This document shows positions 1 through 10,109 of a DNA stretch of 10,109 bases, piece after piece (within the stretch, counting starts at the first letter, position 1; every line of letters starts with the position of its first letter). The translations under genes and the position numbers were made by a program. Origin of the DNA: Marinagarivorans sp. UBA5868 (GTDB lineage Bacteria; Pseudomonadota; Gammaproteobacteria; Pseudomonadales; Cellvibrionaceae); the NCBI GenBank assembly GCA_002432095.1, contig DJFQ01000071.1:4918-15026 (forward strand). The letters run 5' to 3'. Under the pieces are notes generated by a model, which was not told where the DNA came from, made no database searches, and saw only the letters and a list, made by a program, of their open reading frames with translations.

Positions 1-1752
1 CACTATGTGGATGCCCAGACCAAAACCCAGCTGCGGATCGCCGGATTCGGCAAATGGCTGATTGAGCTGGCGCAGCCGCGTCTCCGACATACCCGGCCCC
101 TGATCCCACACCTGAATTAAATAACCGCCGTTGCGTACCCGCCCACTTAACAATACCTGTCCATGCCCGGCGTGGCGCAGAGCGTTGTGCAGTAGATTGT
201 CGAGGATGCGACGCACCAACAGCCGCAGACAGGTCACTTCCACTTCGGTTGCCCGCACTCTTAGCCCCATGCCTTTTGCGGCGAATGCAGGCCGGTGCGG
301 TGCGGCGATTTCTTCCAGCAGGGTGAGTCCGCTCAGTGTCTCCTGCAGTTGTCGATAGGTACTGCGGTTGAGTTGCAGACGGTTGCGCAGCATGGCGTCG
401 GCGTGGCTGAGGGTGTCATTCAACTGGCGGATGATGGGGTCGTCCGCGTCCCGGGTCGCCAGTTGCAGGCGCATGGCCGCCAGCAATTGCAGCAAGTCGT
501 GGGAGGCTGTGGCCGACTGCAACACGGTCGCTTTGGATTGATGACGCAGTTCAGCCGCCGCTTGTTCACTCGCCGCCAATGCCTGTATATCCCGCGCGCG
601 CTCGATCATCTGCTGGTCCAGCAGGCGACGAAGATGGCGCTGTTGCAGCAGAATCGCGGCGGACAGGCAAAGCACGTCGATAAACTGACCGCCGGTGGTG
701 AGGGCAAAAGCACGGAAGCCGAAATCGATGCCAAGGCATACCAGCAATAGCAGATAGGCGAGGCCGCAATGCAGGCACGAGCCGAGTAACAGCAGGCCGG
801 CACCCGGCTCGCGCCGGCGCACGGCCTGGAGCGCTGCAAACACCGAAAGGGGGAGACCCACCACCACCAATAGGGTAAGCGCCATCGCCGTCGACCAGAG
901 CAATCCCGTCAACGCCAAGATGGCGATGGCGAGACTAAACCCCATCAGACTGCGATAAAGAAGCGGATTGTGCTGGCGGAAAGCGAAGATGTTGGCGAAG
1001 AAGAGAAAATAAAACACATAGATAAACGCCGCCGCCAGAGCGGTGATATGGATATTGAGTGTCGTTTGAGTGGGGAAGAATAACCGCCACCCATAGCCGA
1101 AGATCTGCACCATAAACAGCAAAATGCAGAAGATAAACAGACAGTAAAAACCCAGGGACGCGCTTGGGCGCAAAAAGAACTGCACCACAAAGAACAGCAA
1201 CAGCACCAATCCCAGTCCTAGGCTGATGCCGTTAAGCAGGGTGAAGATGTAACTGCGCTCCAAAAAGGTGGGTTCGTCTATGACGTGCAGAGAAAGAGGA
1301 AAATTCGCGAGACTTCGATATTGGATAAACAAAGCGCCCTGTTCGCCGGGCTCCAACTGCAGCAGCAGACTGACATTGGTATGGCGGGCGTAATGAGTGG
1401 CGGTGACACCATTGCCGGGGCGAAGCGTGATCGGTTCCTCCGCTCCCCGCACCCAGTACGCGTGCAGCAGGGGAGGATTGGCAACACCAGTGGAGAGCAC
1501 TCGCTCAATGGGTTGATCCGTTGAGTTGTGCAGGTGAATACGGTACCAATGTGTGTGGACGCGGCCCAACCAGGGTTTTTCCGCGAGGGGTACGAACCAC
1601 CCAGGATTATCTCGAAGGGTATCCAGGTTGAATTGGCCGGTGCGATCGGCAAAATACTCGATTTTCGGGGACTCCTCCTCGGCCTTTGCCACGATGCATA
1701 GCATCAGCAACGCCAACAGAAATACAACTTGAATGCCCGTTGCTGTTTTCAA
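1..1752 (-). CDS. 7TMR-DISM sensor histidine kinase (C-terminus cut by window edge)
   Basis: Inner-membrane sensor kinase that should autophosphorylate on His and pass phosphate to a response regulator, probably the divergent one next door. The visible part is 584 residues. Residues 1-24 form a signal peptide (MKTATGIQVVFLLALLML...). Residues 30-160 are a periplasmic domain resembling 7TMR-DISMED2. Residues 168-370 hold about seven hydrophobic helices, then a helical linker to about 410. The H-box is ASHDLLQ with the phosphoacceptor H418, the N-box DNLLHNA has N523, the G1 box is DQGPGM from D550, and FGLGI lies at the very end, so few residues are missing. The H-box resembles the SHDLRQP class of kinases. 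The start is a TTG at 1752: there is no upstream ATG before the in-frame stop at 1798-1800, AGGA lies 10 nt before it, and it gives a clean signal peptide. The ligand is unknown. Confidence 0.93.
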   Translation of the reverse strand, partial: MKTATGIQVVFLLALLMLCIVAKAEEESPKIEYFADRTGQFNLDTLRDNPGWFVPLAEKPWLGRVHTHWYRIHLHNSTDQPIERVLSTGVANPPLLHAYWVRGAEEPITLRPGNGVTATHYARHTNVSLLLQLEPGEQGALFIQYRSLANFPLSLHVIDEPTFLERSYIFTLLNGISLGLGLVLLLFFVVQFFLRPSASLGFYCLFIFCILLFMVQIFGYGWRLFFPTQTTLNIHITALAAAFIYVFYFLFFANIFAFRQHNPLLYRSLMGFSLAIAILALTGLLWSTAMALTLLVVVGLPLSVFAALQAVRRREPGAGLLLLGSCLHCGLAYLLLLVCLGIDFGFRAFALTTGGQFIDVLCLSAAILLQQRHLRRLLDQQMIERARDIQALAASEQAAAELRHQSKATVLQSATASHDLLQLLAAMRLQLATRDADDPIIRQLNDTLSHADAMLRNRLQLNRSTYRQLQETLSGLTLLEEIAAPHRPAFAAKGMGLRVRATEVEVTCLRLLVRRILDNLLHNALRHAGHGQVLLSGRVRNGGYLIQVWDQGPGMSETRLRQLNQPFAESGDPQLGFGLGIHIV

Positions 1753-1815: not shown

Positions 1816-1854
1816 GATGATAGCCAACCGCACAGGCGGAAAATGGAGCTGCAG

Positions 1855-2451
1855 ATGAACCTCGTCATAGTGGACGATCACGATATTTTTCGCCAATCCC
1901 TCGCTTTATTACTCGGTCAAAAAGGCCATCATCAGGTGTTAGAGACGTTTGCGTCCTCAGAGCCGCTCTTGACTTGGAAGGGTGTACCGCCCGACGCAGT
2001 GTTGCTCGATTACCACATTCCCCAACAGAACGCATGGCAAGTGCTGGAACAACTGCAACGCCATTGGCCAGAGGTAAAGATAGTGTTTCTCACCGGTACC
2101 GGATCGGTCGCGGTGCTCCGGCAGATCGTCGCCAGCAGCGCCGCTGGGGTGCTGCACAAACGCGATAGCGCCGACACTATCCTCGAACTGCTTACGCAGA
2201 TCGAACAAGGACAAAAGGTCGTGTCGCCGGAGATTATCCAGCAAATGGATGAAGCCGAATGTGGATTCACCGCGCGGGAATTGGAAGTTCTCAGCTGCTT
2301 GCTGCAAGGGCGCACGGCGGAGGAGATCGCGGCCAGTCTGCATATCTCCCGGCGCACTGTAGAAAAACATAAAGAAAACATGATGCGCAAAGCAGAATTA
2401 AACAATCTGGCCCAACTGATCGAATTGGGCCACCGTTTAGAGCTCCACTAG
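1855..2451 (+). CDS. NarL/LuxR-family response regulator
   Basis: DNA-binding response regulator of 198 residues, the usual length for the family. The N-terminal receiver domain opens with VIVDDHDIF (acidic pair), has the phosphoacceptor Asp in LLDYHIP (about residue 52), the conserved Thr in FLTGTG (about 80) and Lys in LHKRD (about 102). The C-terminal LuxR-type helix-turn-helix covers about residues 137-196, with TARELEVL, EEIAASLHIS and RTVEKHKENM. An in-frame ATG lies 12 nt upstream at 1843, but its purine-rich stretch is too close; the ATG at 1855 has GGAG six nt upstream and starts exactly at the receiver domain. It is divergent from the sensor kinase, so the two are probably cognate. 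Its stop shares the bases CTAG with the stop of the convergent ankyrin gene. Target genes are unknown; the neighbouring cytochrome locus is a candidate. Confidence 0.95.
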   Translation: MNLVIVDDHDIFRQSLALLLGQKGHHQVLETFASSEPLLTWKGVPPDAVLLDYHIPQQNAWQVLEQLQRHWPEVKIVFLTGTGSVAVLRQIVASSAAGVLHKRDSADTILELLTQIEQGQKVVSPEIIQQMDEAECGFTARELEVLSCLLQGRTAEEIAASLHISRRTVEKHKENMMRKAELNNLAQLIELGHRLELH

Positions 2452-4442
2452 AACACGCCCAGCAGCGCCTTACTCTTCACCAACTCATGCATCTGCGGAC
2501 TGACCTGTTTCGATAGGTCGATAGCGGAGAATCCCAGGCGATTTTTGCGAGTGACACTGGCGTTGGCGTTCAGCAGATGTTTCACCACTTCCGGCGCGTT
2601 GGCGGATACGGCGATCATTAGCGCGGTGTCACCACGCTGATTGCGCGACTCCACCTGGGCCTTGTTCTGCAGTAACCAGGCTGTCAGCAACGGGTCTTTA
2701 TTGATGGCCGCCAACATCAATGCGCTATTGCCGCTCGCAGCCTGATGATTGATGTCGCTGTGGGGCAGGAGCAGGCGCGCGCACTCCAGGCAGCCTTTAT
2801 CCACCGCCATCTGGAAAGGTGTGCGCCCGACGCTGTCCTCCTGGCGTGCGGAGACGCCGATCTGCAACAGGCGGGGAATCAACTTGGTGTTGCCTTCTGC
2901 AGCAGCAAACCACAGAGCGTTGCGCTGTTGCTTGTCGACGGCGGCACCGGAGCTGGCGAAGGGCAGAAGTTTATCGAGCACATTTTGGGCGCGGTGTTGG
3001 GTGGCCAGCAGTATGTAGCGGTCCACCGGCGCCCGGGCAACCGTCAACTGCGCTTTGATCGCGGCGGTATTGGGGGAGTCGCCCATGAGATCCGCCAGAA
3101 GTAGATCGGCAATAGCGTAGCGATCTTCTTCCAGTGCGGTAATCAATGCATCGCGACCGCTGTCATCGGCGATGCCGGCATTGGCTCCTGCCGCTAGCAG
3201 CGTCTTCACCATGTCTTCCTGATTCGCCTGTACCGCGACATGCAGAGCGGTGACGCCGCGATAGGCGATTTGGTTAACCTCCGCCTGCTGTTTTAACAAT
3301 GTGGCCACCATTTGCGGCTTTTGATGTTTGATGGCAAGGATTAGCAGTGTCGATCCATCATCAAGGACGGTGTTGACGGCTTTGGGATCGTTGCGCAGCA
3401 ATTGTTCCAGAAGTGCACGGTTGTCGTTGATCACCGCCTTGGCGACGGCTGGTAGAGAACCGTCGTCAAGCTGCTGAGCTACCACTTTTACGTCCTGGGC
3501 TTTGCGCCCCGCACGCCACCCGCTGCCGTGTTTTGCGCCTAATTTTTCCAGCGCGGCGACCGTTTGCGCAGCACCTTGATATTCGGCCAGGTCCAAAGGT
3601 GTCCACCCTTCTTTGTTGCTGTGATTAACGCTGACTCCAAGCCGGGTGAGCGGCGCCACCAGTTCGTACTGTTGCAGGCGTATGGCGTAATGCAGAAGGT
3701 TGTCGCCGTTGGCGAGAATCTGGTCTTTATCGGCACCGGCTTGAAGAAGCTTTTGCACGAGATCCGTGTGCTTGCGCTCAAGGGCGGTCTGCACCGCCGT
3801 CAGGCCAAAGTTATCCCGGTGGCGCACATCGATGTCTTTGGATAATAACCAGTCCACCGCCGTTTTGCTGCCAGCAGTAGCGGCATAAAACAGCGCCGTA
3901 CGTCCGGCACTATCCGTTAAATTGATATTGCTGTGCTGTTGCAACAGGCGGGTCAAAAGCTCGATTTGGCCGGCGCGCGCGGCGCCAAACCACTGGGCTT
4001 CAATGGGAGCCTCTTGATTGACCTGTACTCCAGGCGCCCCGCGGGCAAGCAGATTCTTGGCGGGGGCATAGTTCTGATCCGCGGAGGCTTGCAACAATTG
4101 CCGGGCGCGCTCGGGGGCGCTCTGTTGCAGTAATTGCGAAAGCGCGAATTGCGCGCCGGCGTGATTTTGCCCCGCGGCTTGTTCCAGCCAATGAGCAGCC
4201 TGCTTTTCGTCTTTCGGAACTCCGCGGCCAAGCAGATACATATTGCCAAGCTGGTACTGCGCTTCGCTATTGCCGGTTTCCGCACTGCTGCGGTAGAGCG
4301 CTGCGGCCTGGGAAAACTGCTGCTGGCGAATGGCCTTGCTCGCCGCTGCCAGATCGTCGGCGTAACCTGTTTGAACGAGCGCGACACTAAGAGTGACGAG
4401 GACAGGGCCGGTCAGGCGGGTCCAGAACTTACGCGGTGCCAA
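2448..4442 (-). CDS. Exported Sel1-repeat and ankyrin-repeat protein
   Basis: Predicted periplasmic scaffold protein of 664 residues with no enzymatic motif. It has a Sec signal peptide (about residues 1-28, ending near QTGYA), one to two Sel1/TPR-like repeats at about 43-105 (AQYQLGNMYLLGRGV, then HAGAQFALSQLL), and about 15 ankyrin repeats from about 150 to the end, in blocks parted by less regular linkers. Typical ankyrin cores are GRTALFYAA, GVTALHVAV and GDTALMIAV. An upstream GTG at 4499 is possible, but the TTG at 4442 has GGAGG at ideal spacing and puts the signal peptide at the N-terminus. It overlaps the upstream oxidoreductase gene by 14 bp, so translation is probably coupled. Known precedent: periplasmic AnkB of Pseudomonas aeruginosa supports catalase KatB. 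A supporting role for the redox proteins here is inference. Confidence 0.88.
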   Translation of the reverse strand: MAPRKFWTRLTGPVLVTLSVALVQTGYADDLAAASKAIRQQQFSQAAALYRSSAETGNSEAQYQLGNMYLLGRGVPKDEKQAAHWLEQAAGQNHAGAQFALSQLLQQSAPERARQLLQASADQNYAPAKNLLARGAPGVQVNQEAPIEAQWFGAARAGQIELLTRLLQQHSNINLTDSAGRTALFYAATAGSKTAVDWLLSKDIDVRHRDNFGLTAVQTALERKHTDLVQKLLQAGADKDQILANGDNLLHYAIRLQQYELVAPLTRLGVSVNHSNKEGWTPLDLAEYQGAAQTVAALEKLGAKHGSGWRAGRKAQDVKVVAQQLDDGSLPAVAKAVINDNRALLEQLLRNDPKAVNTVLDDGSTLLILAIKHQKPQMVATLLKQQAEVNQIAYRGVTALHVAVQANQEDMVKTLLAAGANAGIADDSGRDALITALEEDRYAIADLLLADLMGDSPNTAAIKAQLTVARAPVDRYILLATQHRAQNVLDKLLPFASSGAAVDKQQRNALWFAAAEGNTKLIPRLLQIGVSARQEDSVGRTPFQMAVDKGCLECARLLLPHSDINHQAASGNSALMLAAINKDPLLTAWLLQNKAQVESRNQRGDTALMIAVSANAPEVVKHLLNANASVTRKNRLGFSAIDLSKQVSPQMHELVKSKALLGVF

Positions 4443-5748
4443 ATTTTGCCTCCACTTGAATGCCGGCGCTGTGGAGGAACGGCGTGGGTAAAAGACCACC
4501 TGCGCAGATCACCACAACATCATTGGGAATTGTCTGTAAACCTTGCGCAGTATCCAGCACCACGGCAGATGGTTTGATCTCTTTAACCTGGGATTCGAGC
4601 AATACCGTCAATTGGCCTCGGGATTGAGCCGAGGCGAGGCGTTCGCGATTGGCCTGCCTGGCGCGGGCGAACGCTTTGCCGCGGTAGGTCAAGGTAACTT
4701 TCGCCCCCGGTTGGCGGGCAATCGACGTAGCGGCTTCCAAGGCGCTGTCGCCACCCCCCACCACCAACACTTTGCGACCGATGTACTGCTCTGGATCGAT
4801 CAACCGGTACACCACCTTGGATTGGTCTTCTCCAGGAACCCCGAGCCTGCGCGGGGTTCCGCGACGACCGAGGGCGAGCAACACATTATGGCAGCGCATC
4901 TCGCTTTTGGTAGTGGTGACCAGAAATCCCTGGTCCAGCGGTTTGACGTTTTCCACCCGGGTATTGGTTTGGATTTTTAAACCGGTTTTGCGGATCACAT
5001 CGTGCCAGAAATCCACCAACTGTTCTTTGCTTGCCTCACGGAACTGAAACTGGCCTACCAGCGGCAGGTCCGCCGGTTGCGTCATCACCATCTTGCCGCG
5101 TGGGTAATGGGCGAGGGTTCCACCGATAGAGTCCTGCTCCAACACAATAAACCGCAAGTTTTTGGTTTTGGCTTCCAGAGCGGCACTCAGCCCTGCGGGT
5201 CCAGCACCAACAATAACCAAGTCATATTCAAGCCCGTGGGATTTTGGCAACTTGCGTTGAATTGCATCAAGCGCTTGGCGCCCCTGGGTAATGGCATTTT
5301 TGATCAATCCCATGCCTCCCAGTTCACCGGCAATATAAATACCCGGAACGCTGGTCTCGAAATCCTTGCTTAGCAACGGAATATCGACGCCGCGGGTGGC
5401 GGACCCGAATACCAGCGTAATGGCATCGGAGGGGCAGGCCTCCCGGCAAGCGCCGTGGCCGATGCATTCTGCGGGAGCGACCAACGCGGCTTTGCGGTTG
5501 ATCAAGCCCAGCACGTCGCCCTCCGGGCAGGCGGTGACGCAGGCGCCGCATCCCATACATTTGCCTGCATCAATATGCGGGTGGAGGGAAACTGGCTCGC
5601 CCATGCCGCTATTGATGGCGGTTTCCAGGCGCATACGAGCGCGGCGGTTGGTACGCCACTGCCAGAGATAATAAGTGCTTAAAAGCATCAGCAGGGGGAC
5701 GCCGAAAATCACGGCGTTGGGCGGTGCGAAATCCACAGGTGGTCTCAA
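4429..5748 (-). CDS. Membrane-anchored ferredoxin/FAD-dependent NAD(P) oxidoreductase, apparently permuted
   Basis: Flavoprotein of 439 residues likely passing electrons between NAD(P)H, FAD and Fe-S clusters. One transmembrane helix (about 12-30) is followed by a basic stretch (WRTNRRARMR), which by the positive-inside rule puts the rest in the cytoplasm. A ferredoxin-like domain has CMGCGACVTACP (C64, C67, C70, C74) and CIGHGACREACP (C95, H98, C101, C105), where His replaces the expected second Cys. Residues 132-156 (VPGIYIAGELGGMGLIKNA) match the FAD motif that normally ends thioredoxin-reductase-like proteins. Then come GAGPAG (181-186, FAD) and GGGDSA (331-336, NAD(P)) with basic residues in YRGKAFARAR that suggest NADPH. 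No CxxC redox disulfide is present. The assigned start is TTG with a weak GAACGAG upstream; GTG five codons in is an alternative. It is first in a two-gene operon, divergent from the cytochrome operon. Confidence 0.92.
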   Translation of the reverse strand: MRPPVDFAPPNAVIFGVPLLMLLSTYYLWQWRTNRRARMRLETAINSGMGEPVSLHPHIDAGKCMGCGACVTACPEGDVLGLINRKAALVAPAECIGHGACREACPSDAITLVFGSATRGVDIPLLSKDFETSVPGIYIAGELGGMGLIKNAITQGRQALDAIQRKLPKSHGLEYDLVIVGAGPAGLSAALEAKTKNLRFIVLEQDSIGGTLAHYPRGKMVMTQPADLPLVGQFQFREASKEQLVDFWHDVIRKTGLKIQTNTRVENVKPLDQGFLVTTTKSEMRCHNVLLALGRRGTPRRLGVPGEDQSKVVYRLIDPEQYIGRKVLVVGGGDSALEAATSIARQPGAKVTLTYRGKAFARARQANRERLASAQSRGQLTVLLESQVKEIKPSAVVLDTAQGLQTIPNDVVVICAGGLLPTPFLHSAGIQVEAKFGTA

Positions 5749-5791
5749 CTCGTTCGGGCGCCCGCTTATGCAGCTAGAGTCGCGGCGCGCT

Positions 5792-5819
5792 AGTGTAATT
5801 AATTCGGTTTAGCATTCAA
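5792..5819 (-). promoter_or_regulatory. Candidate sigma70-type promoter for the oxidoreductase operon
   Basis: On the minus strand TTGAAT (5819-5814) and TACACT (5797-5792) are separated by 16 bp; each matches four of six consensus bases. Transcription would start near 5785, giving a leader of roughly 37 nt before the TTG start at 5748. The position is right but the match is moderate. Confidence 0.35.
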
Positions 5820-5864
5820 TACGAACCGTTGCCGCAGAGTCACATACAGTGAGATCCACTGCTC

Positions 5865-5892
5865 ATTCTGGCAAACAAATGTCCCCTATAAT
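5865..5892 (+). promoter_or_regulatory. Candidate promoter with perfect TATAAT box
   Basis: A perfect TATAAT lies at 5887-5892 on the plus strand, but the -35 area (around ATTCTG, 5865-5870) is poor and no extended -10 TG is present. If used, it would give the cytochrome operon an untranslated leader of about 375 nt. A TTGACT at 6177-6182, closer to the gene, has only a weak -10 partner (GATGAT, 15 bp spacer). The true start is undecided. Confidence 0.25.
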
Positions 5893-5942
5893 CCCAAGCC
5901 TTTTTTCATCATTTGGCGAATGTCTTGGAACATCGTCGGCCC

Positions 5943-5976
5943 AAAAAGTATAAGCAGTGGGACGAAAAAGTATAAG
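5943..5976. repeat. 12-bp direct repeat AAAAAGTATAAG, two copies
   Basis: AAAAAGTATAAG occurs at 5943-5954 and again at 5965-5976, 22 bp apart start to start, which is about two helical turns and puts both copies on the same DNA face. It lies about 50-90 bp downstream of the TATAAT box, in the divergent region. Paired sites for a regulator, such as the NarL-type protein of this window, would look like this; the role is inference. Confidence 0.45.
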
Positions 5977-6273
5977 AAACCAAGAGATGACCTTCGCTCA
6001 CTGAACAAACTGTCTATCCTCAACGTAGTGATCTACGCAATAGCGAGAGCTGCGGCCGCACCGACAGCAAAGTGGTTGCAGGCGAGATTTCCGACAAAAA
6101 ATTCTATATGGTCTGTCTGAAATTAAGTGGTGGCGCGTAAATTAACATATTATAGTTGTTGCCGCCAAACGCCTGTTTGACTACATTTTCCCAGTGTGAT
6201 GATGCATCTGGAAGCTGCAGTTTGCTCGGCATGAACCGAATCTGCGCCGGGGTTGATTGAGAAGTTTAGTGGT

Positions 6274-7167
6274 ATGACAACAAGCACAGACAGCATGAAT
6301 AGCGCTTTAAAGGATCGCTATTTGGCGCATGCGCATCGGATATTTGTCCTGCTGTTGGCCGCTGGATGGCTGGTGTTGGTGAGTTGGGGTTGGTCGGTGC
6401 GCGACCAGGACTATATTTCGGCATCGAGTGGCTTGGGTTATTACCTGGGCATGTCCGGCGGCTGCATGATCCTGTTGCTCCTGACGTACAGTTTGCGTAA
6501 GCGGGTGCGGGCCCTGAGTAATCTGTTTCATCTGCGCTATTGGTTTCGCCTGCATATGATGCTCGGTGTCTTGGCGCCCACGGCCATCTTGTTTCACGCA
6601 AGATTCACCATGGGTTCCGCGGTTAACAGCACAGTGGCATTGGTATGTTTGCTCACGGTGGCCAGCAGTGGATTGATCGGCCGGTTTTTGTATAACCGGG
6701 TTCACGCCGGCGTGTACGGCGAGAAGATCAAATTGGTGCAGGTGCGACGCGATTTTCAAACGCTTCATCAGGCGGTGTTGGATCTAGCGGTCACCGACAA
6801 ACAAAAGGAGCGTGCGGAAGGGGTCTTTGATGCATTGGAGGAATTGATCGGGAGCTTGGACACGGCGACGTTCGCGGCGCTTGTGCGCAATCGTCACCGC
6901 GCGCGGGTGATCGCCCAATCTCTGCGGACACTGTTGAAAGCTATCGAGGACTACCACGAAGAGCATCCAGAGGCTCACGAGGAGTTAAGTAAAACCCGCG
7001 CGGATATTCATAATTGCGCGGATATTATGCTGGCAATTTTGAACAAGCTGCCGGGCCTGCATTTATTTGAGCGCTTGTTTGCGCTTTGGCATGTCGTGCA
7101 TTTGCCGATTTTTGGCTTGATGATTATTACCGCGATCACCCACGTGATTGTTGTTCACATGTATTGA
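6274..7167 (+). CDS. Di-heme b-type membrane cytochrome
   Basis: Inner-membrane protein of 297 residues. Hydrophobic helices lie at about 22-40, 55-72, 94-112, 117-137 and 270-296. Two helices each carry a pair of His 14 apart: H94 and H108 (HX13H), and H276 and H290 (HX13H). This is the pattern that holds two stacked b hemes in bc1-type cytochrome b, so it probably carries electrons across the membrane. A soluble, charged, helical segment of about 130 residues (138-268) sits between the fourth and fifth helices, preceded by GLIGRFLYNRVHAG, a motif I associate with membrane proteins found beside FAD oxidoreductases and multiheme cytochromes. The ATG at 6274 is preferred (GAGAAG nine nt upstream); a TTG at 6253 would add seven residues. 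First gene of the plus-strand operon, 11 nt before the 21-heme cytochrome. No sequence-level family assignment could be checked. Confidence 0.82.
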   Translation: MTTSTDSMNSALKDRYLAHAHRIFVLLLAAGWLVLVSWGWSVRDQDYISASSGLGYYLGMSGGCMILLLLTYSLRKRVRALSNLFHLRYWFRLHMMLGVLAPTAILFHARFTMGSAVNSTVALVCLLTVASSGLIGRFLYNRVHAGVYGEKIKLVQVRRDFQTLHQAVLDLAVTDKQKERAEGVFDALEELIGSLDTATFAALVRNRHRARVIAQSLRTLLKAIEDYHEEHPEAHEELSKTRADIHNCADIMLAILNKLPGLHLFERLFALWHVVHLPIFGLMIITAITHVIVVHMY

Positions 7168-7178
7168 CGGAAACCCTG

Positions 7179-8735
7179 ATGAAACGTCCTTATTGGTTGC
7201 TTATTTTCTGCCTCCTCCTCAGTGGAGTTGCCTGGTCGCAGGAAATGTCCATCAAGCAGCGGGTGCTGATGCCGGGTGAAGTGATCGCCGGTCATGCGGA
7301 ATTCGAGGCCCAGTGCGAAAAATGTCACGCCTCTTTCGATAAAGCCGCCATGCCCAACTTGTGTCTCGATTGCCACGATGAAATTCGCGCGGACCGCAAC
7401 AGCAAAACCGGGTTCCACGGTCAATCACCTCAGGCCAGCGTCAAACCTTGCAATACTTGCCACACCGATCACCTAGGCCGAGATGCGGACATTATCGCTA
7501 TGGCGATCGATGCTTTTAGCCATGAGTGGACACGCTTTCCTCTGGAAGGCAAACACACGCCCCTCGCCTGCACCAGTTGTCATGAAGAGGGTAAGAAATT
7601 TCGCGATGCCGAACCCCAATGTGTGAGCTGTCACAAGAAAGATGATTTCCATAAAGAAGCCTTGGGTACCGAATGCGAAACCTGCCACACCCCCCAGGGC
7701 TGGCAACAACGCAACGAGTTCGACCACTCCACTACTGGCTTTGATCTGCGTGGCATGCACACAGAGGTTGCCTGTTCAGGTTGTCACGCCGGTCAACGCT
7801 ATCAGTTTGAGGAAACCACCTGCGTAAGTTGTCACAAAGCGGCGGATGTTCATGCGGGTAAAAACGGCAAGCAGTGCGACAGCTGCCACTCGGTGGAAGG
7901 TTGGGATAAACATATATTCAACCACAACACGACGGATTTCCCGCTGCGACATCATCATGCGGAATTGCCCTGTCGTGCCTGCCACACCAATGGGGTGGTG
8001 GAGAAAAATTTGTCCACCACCTGCCATAGCTGTCATGCCAATGACGATATCCATCTAGGCCGCAACGGCAAACAATGTGAAACGTGCCATACCACGGTGG
8101 ACTGGGATAAGGCCAAGTTCGATCACGCCACCGAAACCGGTTTTCCACTGACCGGACACCACCAGCAACTCGCCTGCACCAACTGTCATGTGGGCGCTTT
8201 GCAGGACGATCTGCCGCGGGACTGCGCTTCCTGTCACTCAGCGGACGACATTCACAAGAACCCGGAAATGCAAATGTGTGCCACCTGCCATGTCACCGAT
8301 GGTTGGAACATCATTAATCGCTTTGATCATCACTTCACCAATTTCCCATTAGTCGGCTTTCACAATGTGGTGCCCTGCCAGAGTTGCCACATCGGCAATC
8401 AATTCGCGGGAACCGATACCAATTGCGTGAGCTGCCATAAACAGGATGACCACCACCGTGGCGCGCTTGGCGAGAGCTGCAATAGCTGCCATTCACCCAA
8501 TGGCTGGAACCTATGGCAGTTCGATCATGAAGAATTTACCGGCTATGCACTGCTAGGTTCTCACGAGGGGCTTGCCTGTGATGCCTGTCATGCTCCGGGC
8601 ACCGACCCTCACAAGACCCCCGCTATCTGTGGTAAATGTCATGAACGCCAGGACATTCACAATGGTGGTTTCGGGCTGGACTGCGGCCGCTGTCACAGTC
8701 AAAACAAGTTTTTCCAGTTGATATTGCAGGACTAG
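7179..8735 (+). CDS. Periplasmic 21-heme cytochrome c
   Basis: Exported cytochrome of 518 residues with 21 CXXCH heme sites, about one heme per 25 residues. The signal peptide ends near GVAWS (residue 20). Heme cysteines start at 46, 62, 91, 131, 148, 166, 199, 215, 233, 265, 282, 300, 333, 349, 367, 400, 416, 434, 467, 484 and 502, that is seven triplets. The last six triplets repeat every 66-68 residues, each built as FxHxxTxFxLxGxH, then CxxCH, CxxCHxxDDxH, and CxxCHxxxGW. Three extra His per block (FxH, GxH, DxH) could be the sixth ligands, giving bis-His low-spin hemes. It is likely a periplasmic electron wire. An in-frame upstream ATG at 7086 is rejected: it lies inside the cytochrome b gene and would bury the signal peptide. 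GGA lies seven nt before the chosen ATG. Maturation needs the Ccm system, absent here. Confidence 0.95.
   Translation: MKRPYWLLIFCLLLSGVAWSQEMSIKQRVLMPGEVIAGHAEFEAQCEKCHASFDKAAMPNLCLDCHDEIRADRNSKTGFHGQSPQASVKPCNTCHTDHLGRDADIIAMAIDAFSHEWTRFPLEGKHTPLACTSCHEEGKKFRDAEPQCVSCHKKDDFHKEALGTECETCHTPQGWQQRNEFDHSTTGFDLRGMHTEVACSGCHAGQRYQFEETTCVSCHKAADVHAGKNGKQCDSCHSVEGWDKHIFNHNTTDFPLRHHHAELPCRACHTNGVVEKNLSTTCHSCHANDDIHLGRNGKQCETCHTTVDWDKAKFDHATETGFPLTGHHQQLACTNCHVGALQDDLPRDCASCHSADDIHKNPEMQMCATCHVTDGWNIINRFDHHFTNFPLVGFHNVVPCQSCHIGNQFAGTDTNCVSCHKQDDHHRGALGESCNSCHSPNGWNLWQFDHEEFTGYALLGSHEGLACDACHAPGTDPHKTPAICGKCHERQDIHNGGFGLDCGRCHSQNKFFQLILQD
7515..8696 (+). repeat. Six tandem three-heme repeats of about 200 bp
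   Basis: Internal coding repeats of the 21-heme cytochrome (residues about 113-506). Each unit is about 67 codons with three heme sites spaced 16-17 and 18 residues apart, then a gap of 31-33 residues to the next unit. The first heme cysteines are at residues 131, 199, 265, 333, 400 and 467. The N-terminal triplet (46, 62, 91) has wider spacing and is more diverged. The pattern points to growth by tandem duplication. Confidence 0.88.
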
Positions 8736-8739
8736 ACCG

Positions 8740-9654
8740 ATGATGAGAGTGGTGCAATGGTGTTGTCGGGTTCTGGGCCTGGTGGTTCTGATGGGATGTT
8801 TAAATGGCGTTGTGCTGGCGCAGGATCAGGCCTTCGATCACGCAGCGACCGGTTTTGAGCTTACTGGAGGTCACAACTTTGTGCCTTGCGAGAGTTGCCA
8901 CGTTGGCGGCCAATTCGCCGGCACCCCCACTGAATGCGTCGCGTGTCACAGTATCAACGGCCGCTTTAATGCCACGCCGAAACCCGTGGAGCACATCTTT
9001 ACCAGCGAGCGTTGCGACGCCTGCCACAGCACTATCGGGTTTCAGGCGGTTCCCGTGGTGGACCACCACGAAGTATTTGGCCGCTGCGAGAACTGCCACA
9101 ACAACATCGTCGTTCCCGGTAAGCCCGTGGATCATATCCCGGCGCCGAACGAGTGTGCCGATTGTCATTCGGATATGAGCTGGCAGCCGGTGCGTTTCAA
9201 TCACGATAATGTTGGCGACAATTGCGTTTCCTGCCATGACAATTTCAGGGCTCAGGGCAAACCACCAAACCATATCCCCGCAAGTGAACAATGTGGCGGC
9301 TGCCACAGTACGGTCGCGTTCCAGCCAGTGATTGTGAATCATGATTTTGTGGAGGGAACATGCTTTAGCTGCCACAACAACAATATTGCGCGCGGCTGGC
9401 CGCAAGACCATATAGCCGTCCAACCTCAGTGCGATGCCTGCCACAGAAACACGGTCGCTTTTGCGCCCGTACCGGCTGAAAATGTGGATCACGAATATGT
9501 TATTGGCGCCTGCTTTGACTGCCATAACAACCAAGTGGCTCCTGGTCAGCCTATGAACCACATTCCGGTAAGGGAACCGCTTTGTGGAAGGTGCCACTCC
9601 ACCGAGGTCTGGAGTCCACCGGAGAGAATAGACCCTGACTTACTTGCGTTTTAG
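8740..9654 (+). CDS. 11-heme cytochrome c
   Basis: Exported cytochrome of 304 residues with 11 CXXCH sites (cysteines at 50, 66, 92, 116, 139, 162, 185, 208, 231, 258, 282). Residues 30-70 copy the front half of the repeat of the preceding gene (FDHxxTGFxLxGGH, CESCH, CVACH). From about 109 on it switches to a two-heme unit of 46-50 residues: NH or DH, CxxCHNN, GKPxxHIP, CxxCHST, FxPV. There are 12 non-motif His, enough for bis-His ligation of all hemes. The N-terminus is either a signal peptide cut near VVLA (27) or, less likely, a lipoprotein signal, since LMGC (C20) is an imperfect lipobox. ATG at 8740 or 8743, four nt after the previous stop, with AGGA eight nt upstream. It likely exchanges electrons with the 21-heme protein. 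It ends after a short tail, VWSPPERIDPDLLAF. Confidence 0.94.
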   Translation: MMRVVQWCCRVLGLVVLMGCLNGVVLAQDQAFDHAATGFELTGGHNFVPCESCHVGGQFAGTPTECVACHSINGRFNATPKPVEHIFTSERCDACHSTIGFQAVPVVDHHEVFGRCENCHNNIVVPGKPVDHIPAPNECADCHSDMSWQPVRFNHDNVGDNCVSCHDNFRAQGKPPNHIPASEQCGGCHSTVAFQPVIVNHDFVEGTCFSCHNNNIARGWPQDHIAVQPQCDACHRNTVAFAPVPAENVDHEYVIGACFDCHNNQVAPGQPMNHIPVREPLCGRCHSTEVWSPPERIDPDLLAF

Positions 9655-9672: not shown

Positions 9673-10109
9673 ATGAACACCAAAACCCTGCGATTTATGC
9701 GTGCCCTGTTAACAGCAATTGGGTTGATCTGGCTACCAGCTTTTGTTTTTGCTGCTGATAAACAAAATGCAGCGGCTTCCGCCGAACCCGACACATTTTT
9801 CTCCCTCTACCGCGACTACACCAATGCGGGTTATGTGGTTGAGTGGCCGGTGAGTGCCGGGGGCGTTAATGCTGTGCGCAGTCGTCTCGGACGCTACGCT
9901 TATCTGGCTTTTTTCACTTCGCCGCAACAATTGCAGAACAAACCCCTGCCTCTGGTCAGTCTCGGGTTTTTTACCTCTCGTTCCGAGGCGGAAAAATTTA
10001 TTGCGGATAACGCCTCAGCGTTTGCTGGGATGCGTGTGGTTGGTGTGTCGCAATCGGAGCACCAACAGCTTTTTTCCGGCGCCGAGCAGAAATCCTGGTA
10101 TTGGTTGAG
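9673..10109 (+). CDS. Exported protein with SPOR-like segment (cut by right edge)
   Basis: I do not recognise this protein with certainty. The visible 145 residues begin with a clear signal peptide (MNTKTLRFMRALLTAIGLIW, ending near AFVFA at 27). A mature domain follows. Residues 94-128 (LVSLGFFTSRSEAEKFI..., then MRVVGVS) resemble the first half of a SPOR-type fold (beta strand, helix, strand), and residues 74-84 (RYAYLAFFTSP) look like a similar strand. SPOR domains bind denuded peptidoglycan, but the match here is weak. No heme motif is visible. The gene starts 18 nt after the 11-heme gene, with GGA seven nt before the ATG, so it belongs to the same operon. It may anchor or assemble the cytochromes; this is inference. 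The frame is open to the window edge. Confidence 0.8.
   Translation, partial: MNTKTLRFMRALLTAIGLIWLPAFVFAADKQNAAASAEPDTFFSLYRDYTNAGYVVEWPVSAGGVNAVRSRLGRYAYLAFFTSPQQLQNKPLPLVSLGFFTSRSEAEKFIADNASAFAGMRVVGVSQSEHQQLFSGAEQKSWYWL

Follow-up and report, generated by a model that had tools for sequence, protein, structure and literature searches.

Analysis of a 10,109-nucleotide stretch from the draft genome of Marinagarivorans sp. UBA5868 (assembly GCA_002432095.1, contig DJFQ01000071.1; G000:C123:4918-15026), hereafter called the window, revealed a locus that is very probably a porin-cytochrome cluster of the PCC3 type, with the known layout of an inner-membrane protein (IMP), two multiheme cytochromes (MHC1 and MHC2) and an outer-membrane porin. 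The new finding is that a flavoprotein with iron-sulfur motifs, designated OX and encoded divergently from IMP, belongs to the PCC3 set. Papers of 2017 to 2026 present PCC3 as a possible iron oxidase, yet it is reported to go down on Fe(II) in Sideroxydans ES-1 (PMC8788666). As an almost constant partner of the NAD(P)H flavoprotein type, OX gives direct access to the direction of PCC3 and to its inner-side chemistry, and may tie the PCC3 wire to the NADPH of the cell. Carriers of the system are found among alpha-, beta- and gammaproteobacteria, besides a small number of other metagenome-assembled genomes.

A probable PCC3 cluster in Marinagarivorans

The source genome is a 4.2-Mb draft that is 87.6% complete. 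An earlier note on this DNA, made from the letters of the window, had described four genes, OX being divergent from an operon of IMP, MHC1 and MHC2; all four were found in place. Homologous loci were collected by scanning genome contigs with an IMP profile, which gave 229 confirmed stretches; 80 of these were kept and all inspected (the 80 loci).

PCC3 was defined with an IMP of ~300 amino acids that has five transmembrane helices, an SGXXG motif on the fourth and WX3HX13H motifs on the third and fifth (He et al. 2017; PMC5566968). The IMP of the window (6274-7167, plus strand, ~297 amino acids) displays W90-x3-H94-x13-H108, S132-G-x2-G136 and W272-x3-H276-x13-H290, and five hydrophobic segments once overlaps are merged, as judged by hydropathy only. 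Two WX3HX13H motifs and SGxx[GA] occur in all 80 IMP homologues of the loci. The start at ATG 6274 was preferred over TTG 6253 because homologues begin at ATG 6274. The histidine pairs H94/H108 and H276/H290 fit the cytochrome b with two heme-pair helices of the earlier note, and from this motif we infer that IMP binds heme b. No Pfam or NCBIfam family was found over its cut-off on IMP.

MHC1 (7179-8735, plus strand) has 21 CXXCH motifs in 518 amino acids and a signal-peptide-like N-terminus, in agreement with the periplasmic cytochrome of PCC3, which has ~21 hemes and a low residue-to-heme ratio; it is the predicted periplasmic wire. It consists largely of ~67-residue repeats of three hemes each. 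This repeat predicts heme counts in multiples of three, and these were nearly always found: among 72 uncut MHC1 proteins 47 have 21 hemes, 12 have 24, 9 have 18 and 2 have 27, while one has 22 and one is a mis-assigned frame (the 1-heme "MHC1" of L057; the real MHC1 of that locus, with 23 hemes, is outside the count). MHC2 (8740-9654, plus strand) has 11 CXXCH motifs in 304 amino acids, mostly one heme per 23-27 residues, behind a hydrophobic signal-like N-terminus, and corresponds to the second cytochrome of PCC3. Its predicted extracellular location is taken from He et al. (2017). The 21- and 11-heme exported cytochromes of the earlier note were thus recovered. Median values in the loci are 25 (MHC1) and 28 (MHC2) amino acids per heme. 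The size of MHC2 varies strongly, from 5 to 73 hemes in 43 uncut genes, and the MHC2 of L079, with 89, runs to the end of its locus. For Gallionellaceae, periplasmic PCC3 cytochromes of 21, 24 and 27 hemes and extracellular ones of 10-35 hemes are reported (PMC10734462). Two genes code for huge MHC2 proteins: L073:12688-19404 of a Bradyrhizobium (73 CXXCH in 2,238 amino acids) and L079:12614-20774 (at least 89 in 2,720 amino acids, open at the locus end).

The earlier note had seen no outer-membrane porin, which is an effect of the window edge. A gene starting directly behind MHC2 (9673-10109, plus strand) encodes a signal-like segment and a SPOR-like domain (Pfam E 0.018, below the cut-off). 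The contig (L002, 16,040 bases) extends 1,014 bases past the window end at L002 15026; beyond an N stretch follows the coding sequence of a TPR part and of a part like a beta-barrel (L002 15092-16040). Both this N stretch and the end of the contig leave the gene incomplete. The homologues in L006, L007, L012 and L046, all of full length, each join an N-terminal domain, a TPR part and a barrel part in one protein. Taken together, the N-terminus in the window, the part further on the contig and the layout of the homologues identify the next gene as a porin. A structural model of the L006 homologue (mean pLDDT 79.6, pTM 0.55) has 22 strands after the TPR part, and its best matches in the PDB are outer-membrane barrels, mostly porins with some pilus ushers, at low TM-scores. 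A novel layout without a porin was ruled out, as the window stops inside the porin gene.

The locus thus has the porin, the 21-heme periplasmic cytochrome, the second cytochrome and the ~300-residue IMP with its defining motifs that characterize PCC3, and the gene order (IMP, periplasmic cytochrome, extracellular cytochrome, porin) is that of Slit_1446-1449 of strain ES-1 (PMC12016527). It differs in its MHC2, which with 11 hemes is at the low end compared to a median of 34 (PMC5566968), and in OX and an ankyrin-repeat protein (ANK), which are outside the four-gene definition. The layout, which the earlier note could not match to a known system, is therefore that of PCC3 as described in PMC5566968. 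The idea of a transmembrane electron conduit was right. Its end point was placed in the periplasm, whereas it is probably the cell surface, because a porin gene belongs to the set. The extracellular electron-transfer function of PCC3 has been described as hypothetical or unverified (PMC5566968; PMC12442390). Known carriers include Sideroxydans, Leptothrix and Gallionellaceae (PMC5566968).

The MtrCAB, MtoAB and PioAB systems likewise lead electrons from a multiheme cytochrome through a porin to the surface, but they have another inner-membrane partner. A cluster of the Mtr/Mto type was rejected, with TIGR03508 (DmsE family) reaching at best 23.4 bits in the genome of the window against a cut-off of 192.2, so no decaheme of the DmsE/MtrA family is found over the cut-off. 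PCC4 shares the histidine spacing of IMP and a cluster with iron-sulfur redox proteins, but has cytochromes of 4, 5 and 10 hemes, no extracellular cytochrome, and its IMP and the PCC3 one are reported not to be significantly homologous overall (PMC5566968).

Co-occurrence of OX and IMP

The earlier note had proposed a neighbourhood search, in which rare togetherness of the genes would speak against it; the genes were found together. An MHC1-type cytochrome is encoded beside IMP in 80/80 loci, which exceeds chance; OX is present in 71, MHC2 in 66, ANK in 52 and a barrel protein in 42. Among the 43 loci with no less than 6.5 kb of right flank, 38 have the barrel gene; the 38 of all 80 loci that lack it include early contig ends and five with room (L061, L063, L068, L073 and L079). 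OX is upstream of IMP, divergent and within 1.3 kb in 55 of the 71 loci that have it. Going by record titles, the hosts of the 80 loci are gamma-, alpha- and betaproteobacteria, with Woeseiaceae, Spongiibacteraceae, Emcibacter, Bradyrhizobium, Thiobacillus and Gallionella among them, and a few further metagenome-assembled hosts, two of which are Nitrospinaceae.

IMP and OX profiles were also searched in 369 genomes drawn evenly from the class of the host, the genome of the window included, with cut-offs of E <= 1e-40 for IMP and E <= 1e-80 for OX. IMP is present in 42 of these genomes, OX in 43 and both in 41 (Fisher p 7e-51, kinship ignored). The two genomes with OX only are G193, where the OX match is partial, and G272, which is 72% complete. 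Ten genomes with weak IMP matches (best E 2e-18 to 7e-11) were left out; these matches are probably distant IMP-like families. A cut-off of E <= 1e-10 would give 52 IMP genomes, and both proteins would then occur in 41/52, as none of the ten has OX. Among the 47 places where IMP was found, OX lies within 1.5 kb in 35 and within 12 kb on the same contig in 6, and is unlinked in 6; 34 of the 35 close OX genes are divergent and upstream. Five of the six genomes with an unlinked IMP still have OX.

Nine loci have no OX in the stretch inspected. Six of their genomes, including a Gallionella genome, have OX elsewhere, and some of these may be neighbours across a contig break. In L042 it lies ~11 kb away on the same contig; the genome of this locus appears to be identical with G333 of the 369-genome sample. 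In two Rhodocyclales loci (L061 and L063), IMP, an 18-heme MHC1 and OX follow one another on a single strand, and neither MHC2 nor a barrel gene was found in 10 kb downstream. We take IMP, MHC1 and OX as the core of the system.

Among 97 genomes (that of the window and 96 relatives), a true IMP (E <= 1e-80) was found in six (G000, G009, G012, G039, G056 and G090). The genus has two further members among these genomes, neither of them with an IMP match. This patchy spread suits horizontal transfer. A plasmid search with IMP gave one weak match only. One OX gene in a one-contig genome (G129:C1:2217460-2218326) has one in-frame TGA and covers model positions 7-294 only; this copy may be decaying, next to an IMP that is intact.

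In the literature, the main text of PMC5566968 (figures and supplements being outside this scope) does not contain the words "ankyrin", "pyridine" or "FAD", and its passages on iron-sulfur proteins or NADPH concern no PCC3 gene. The main text of PMC10734462 has no "flavoprotein", "ankyrin" or "pyridine nucleotide", and its lone "4Fe-4S" is a table row untied to PCC3. No 4Fe-4S, "flavoprotein", "ankyrin" or "pyridine nucleotide" occurs in the main text of PMC12442390, and the sections consulted of PMC11475568 hold nothing on PCC3 partners. Literature searches yielded no title on an OX-like PCC3 partner among the matches listed.

The OX flavoprotein

OX (4429-5748, minus strand, start codon uncertain) has a hydrophobic N-terminal membrane helix, a two-cluster ferredoxin-type domain and an FAD/NAD(P) domain resembling YpdA and thioredoxin reductase. 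Thirty aligned homologues of several classes share 50-61% identity with it and have the FAD and pyridine-nucleotide motifs in common. Cluster motif I (C64-x2-C67-x2-C70-x3-C74) is complete in the window; C67 is found in 22 of the 31 aligned sequences and is replaced by Ser in 7 and by Ala in 2. Motif II (C95-x2-H98-x2-C101-x3-C105; 5434-5466, minus strand) has a histidine at the position of the second cysteine of ferredoxins. This histidine is kept in 70 of the 71 OX proteins of the loci, the remaining one (L026) being cut by a contig end. OX thus does not have the two CxxCxxCxxxC motifs of 2[4Fe-4S] ferredoxins; Pfam models of the Fer4 type nonetheless score over their cut-off. The 4Fe-4S/FAD protein of the earlier note accordingly stands, except that motif II does not have four cysteines. 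As part of the NADPH-driven export proposed below, it is tentatively suggested that one iron-sulfur centre is a His-ligated or a three-iron cluster.

The FAD domain apparently is circularly permuted, as read from the order of its segments and from the better alignment obtained after moving one of them. The segment FETNVPGIFIAGELGG (given as consensus), which ends the FAD domain in thioredoxin-reductase-like enzymes, precedes the GxGxxG motif in OX. When it is moved behind the domain, the YpdA model aligns over positions 1-310 of 316 with 182.4 bits, a modest gain over the natural OX (1-264, 175.7 bits) and over the piece lacking this segment (1-263, 168.9 bits). The thioredoxin-reductase model aligns with the rearranged OX over 1-298 of 300. 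The 63-residue FAD segment alone gave no significant reductase match in the PDB: the top rows are repeat-protein artefacts and thioredoxin reductase appears at E 0.25.

The closest structures to an AlphaFold2 model of OX (mean pLDDT 83, pTM 0.71) are YpdA, thioredoxin reductases and ferredoxin-NADP reductases. Because of these relatives, OX is expected to use NADPH and not NADH. It shares its FAD/NADPH fold with YpdA (bacillithiol disulfide reductase) and the thioredoxin-reductase-like ferredoxin-NADP reductases, but adds a membrane helix, an iron-sulfur domain and the apparent permutation. Identity as a YpdA-type thiol enzyme was rejected: TIGR04018 scores 175.7 bits against a cut-off of 339.9, and no CxxC thiol pair outside the cluster motifs is conserved among the 31 aligned proteins.

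Proposed electron transfer and alternatives

It is rather probable that OX is the cytoplasmic point of electron entry or exit of IMP. Chances are about even for the complete pathway that we favour, in which the set would act as a split NADPH oxidase (NOX) or ferric reductase, a flavoprotein plus a diheme b protein, with a heme wire attached. OX, anchored on the cytoplasmic face, would accept hydride from NADPH onto FAD and pass single electrons through its two iron-sulfur centres to IMP. The two b hemes of IMP would carry these through the inner membrane, and the 21-heme MHC1, which spans the periplasm, would receive them and hand them into the porin and then to MHC2 at the cell surface. Whereas gene content, motifs, conservation, the co-occurrence of OX with IMP and the modelled barrel of a porin homologue were observed, sidedness, cofactor preference, path and outward direction are inferred. 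The net flow is outward with a chance slightly short of even, the remainder going to uptake or two-way use. Still more tentative is the general proposal that PCC3 is an NADPH-driven exporter instead of a quinone-linked iron oxidase, representing a new split NOX-like class with a permuted flavoprotein and a surface cytochrome that may have from 5 up to at least 73 hemes. In this proposal IMP, MHC1 and OX would form the core, with porin and surface cytochrome as additions.

Export is favoured because OX has the fold of an NADPH flavoprotein and because IMP-like genes adjoin NAD(P)H flavoproteins of two other kinds. Three distant IMP-like genes in the family of the host (L103, L104 and L105, the only distant matches whose flavoprotein neighbours were annotated) lie directly beside such flavoproteins and cytochromes of 7 to 10 hemes. 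Bioenergetics also favour export: energy is released when electrons pass from NADPH to an acceptor at the surface, whereas driving electrons of Fe(II) across a charged membrane onto NADP+ costs a great deal of energy. The comparison with NADPH oxidases and ferric reductases, made before by He et al. (PMC5566968), is based on a flavoprotein combined with a membrane protein that has two His pairs spaced by 13. In PCC3 the two are separate genes, the fold of the flavoprotein is another one and IMP has no significant kinship to PF01794.

Several observations weigh against export. IMP occurs without OX in G285 of the 369-genome sample, and OX was not found in the genomes of L041, L048 and L068 (3/80). 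Sequence kinship between IMP and ferric reductases or NOX is not detectable: PF01794 matched 1 of 28 IMP family members, at E 0.047, and not the IMP of the window, so that the His spacing alone agrees. Iron oxidisers are among the hosts of PCC3 (PMC5566968; PMC10734462), and one PCC3 IMP (copy 2) is raised when strain CL21 becomes iron-oxidising (PMC12442390). RuBisCO-family genes (PF00016, including RuBisCO-like ones) were found in 29 of 42 IMP carriers and in 152 of 327 other genomes (p 0.008, kinship ignored), which fits lithotrophic electron uptake.

The last three points speak for the published model, in which an extracellular donor such as Fe(II) delivers electrons via MHC2, porin and MHC1 to IMP and on to quinone in the inner membrane (He et al. 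2017; PMC5566968). In that case OX would serve IMP as an accessory, either drawing on it or adjusting its redox state. PCC3 is also treated as a possible iron oxidase in PMC13386937. We regard this uptake as a strong rival model, though one somewhat less likely than not. In Sideroxydans ES-1 the two PCC3 clusters go down on Fe(II) (PMC8788666), a point in favour of export, and on magnetite its PCC3 proteins are at low to middling percentiles, with the listed extracellular cytochrome at 0 throughout (PMC12016527). Moreover, the model as described gives the near-constant OX no role. The genome of the window, at its 87.6% completeness, has no RuBisCO-family match at E <= 1e-20 and, as said, no MtrA/MtoA-type protein over the family cut-off. 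Several matches to heme-copper oxidases, partly fragmentary, were also found in it.

It is unlikely that OX stands outside the electron path as a sensor or maintenance enzyme, for example for the redox state of heme proteins or of a regulator, and is kept as a service to PCC3. Its usually divergent orientation (34/35 close pairs) and occasional unlinked position would suit such a role, as would the cNMP-binding domains of the related L105 protein. However, a single OX chain combines a membrane anchor, iron-sulfur centres and FAD, and its neighbour is a predicted diheme b protein; OX moreover has no conserved CxxC thiol pair outside the cluster motifs in the 31 aligned proteins, and is kept in L061 and L063, where no porin or MHC2 was found. 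That the copy in the window stops short of the surface, either storing electrons in the periplasm or forming a conduit whose outer-membrane step does not work, is very improbable: two Rhodocyclales loci do have IMP, MHC1 and OX only and the porin on this contig is incomplete, but a SPOR-like/TPR/barrel-like protein is encoded in the right place, barrel genes occur in 42/80 loci and a homologue models as a 22-strand barrel.

Two further leads were set aside. The search for kinship of IMP with NOX or cytochrome b561 found nothing convincing by sequence, as the best PDB row (E 0.0023) and the lower ones all fall on helical-bundle or coiled-coil stretches. The conduit of a bioanode Methylobacter (PMC13322032) was not used as support for export by PCC3, as this cluster is of the MtrAB type.

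Neighbouring genes and distant IMP relatives

ANK (2448-4499, minus strand, start codon uncertain) lies 3' of OX, overlaps it and contains Sel1 and ankyrin repeats. It is probably exported to the periplasm; a simple hydropathy rule found a hydrophobic N-terminal stretch in 49 of 51 ANK proteins. In loci lacking ANK (L029, L045, L028 and L030), OX is sometimes followed by a protein of 436-437 amino acids that we take to be CcmI-like or by one of ~306 amino acids that is presumably universal-stress-like, both named from a look at their sequences. The gap between OX and IMP in the window (5749-6252) is ~500 bp, and many other loci have 150-400 bp. A sensor kinase of the 7TMR-DISM type (1-1752, minus strand) and a LuxR-type response regulator (1843-2451, plus strand) adjoin the cluster. 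A regulator match near ANK was likewise found in L035 and L076.

In L103:6207-9713 and L104:6545-9971 a short IMP-like gene lies between a 7-heme cytochrome gene and a gene for an FNR-type FAD/NAD/2Fe-2S protein (651 and 636 amino acids, respectively), of which the fold differs from that of OX. This set is possibly a separate NAD(P)H-to-cytochrome system. In L105:1-11148 the IMP-like gene is beside genes for 10- and 7-heme cytochromes and for an 874-residue pyridine-nucleotide oxidoreductase with cNMP-binding and iron-sulfur domains, distantly related to OX. The L105 set may be akin to PCC4 of He et al.

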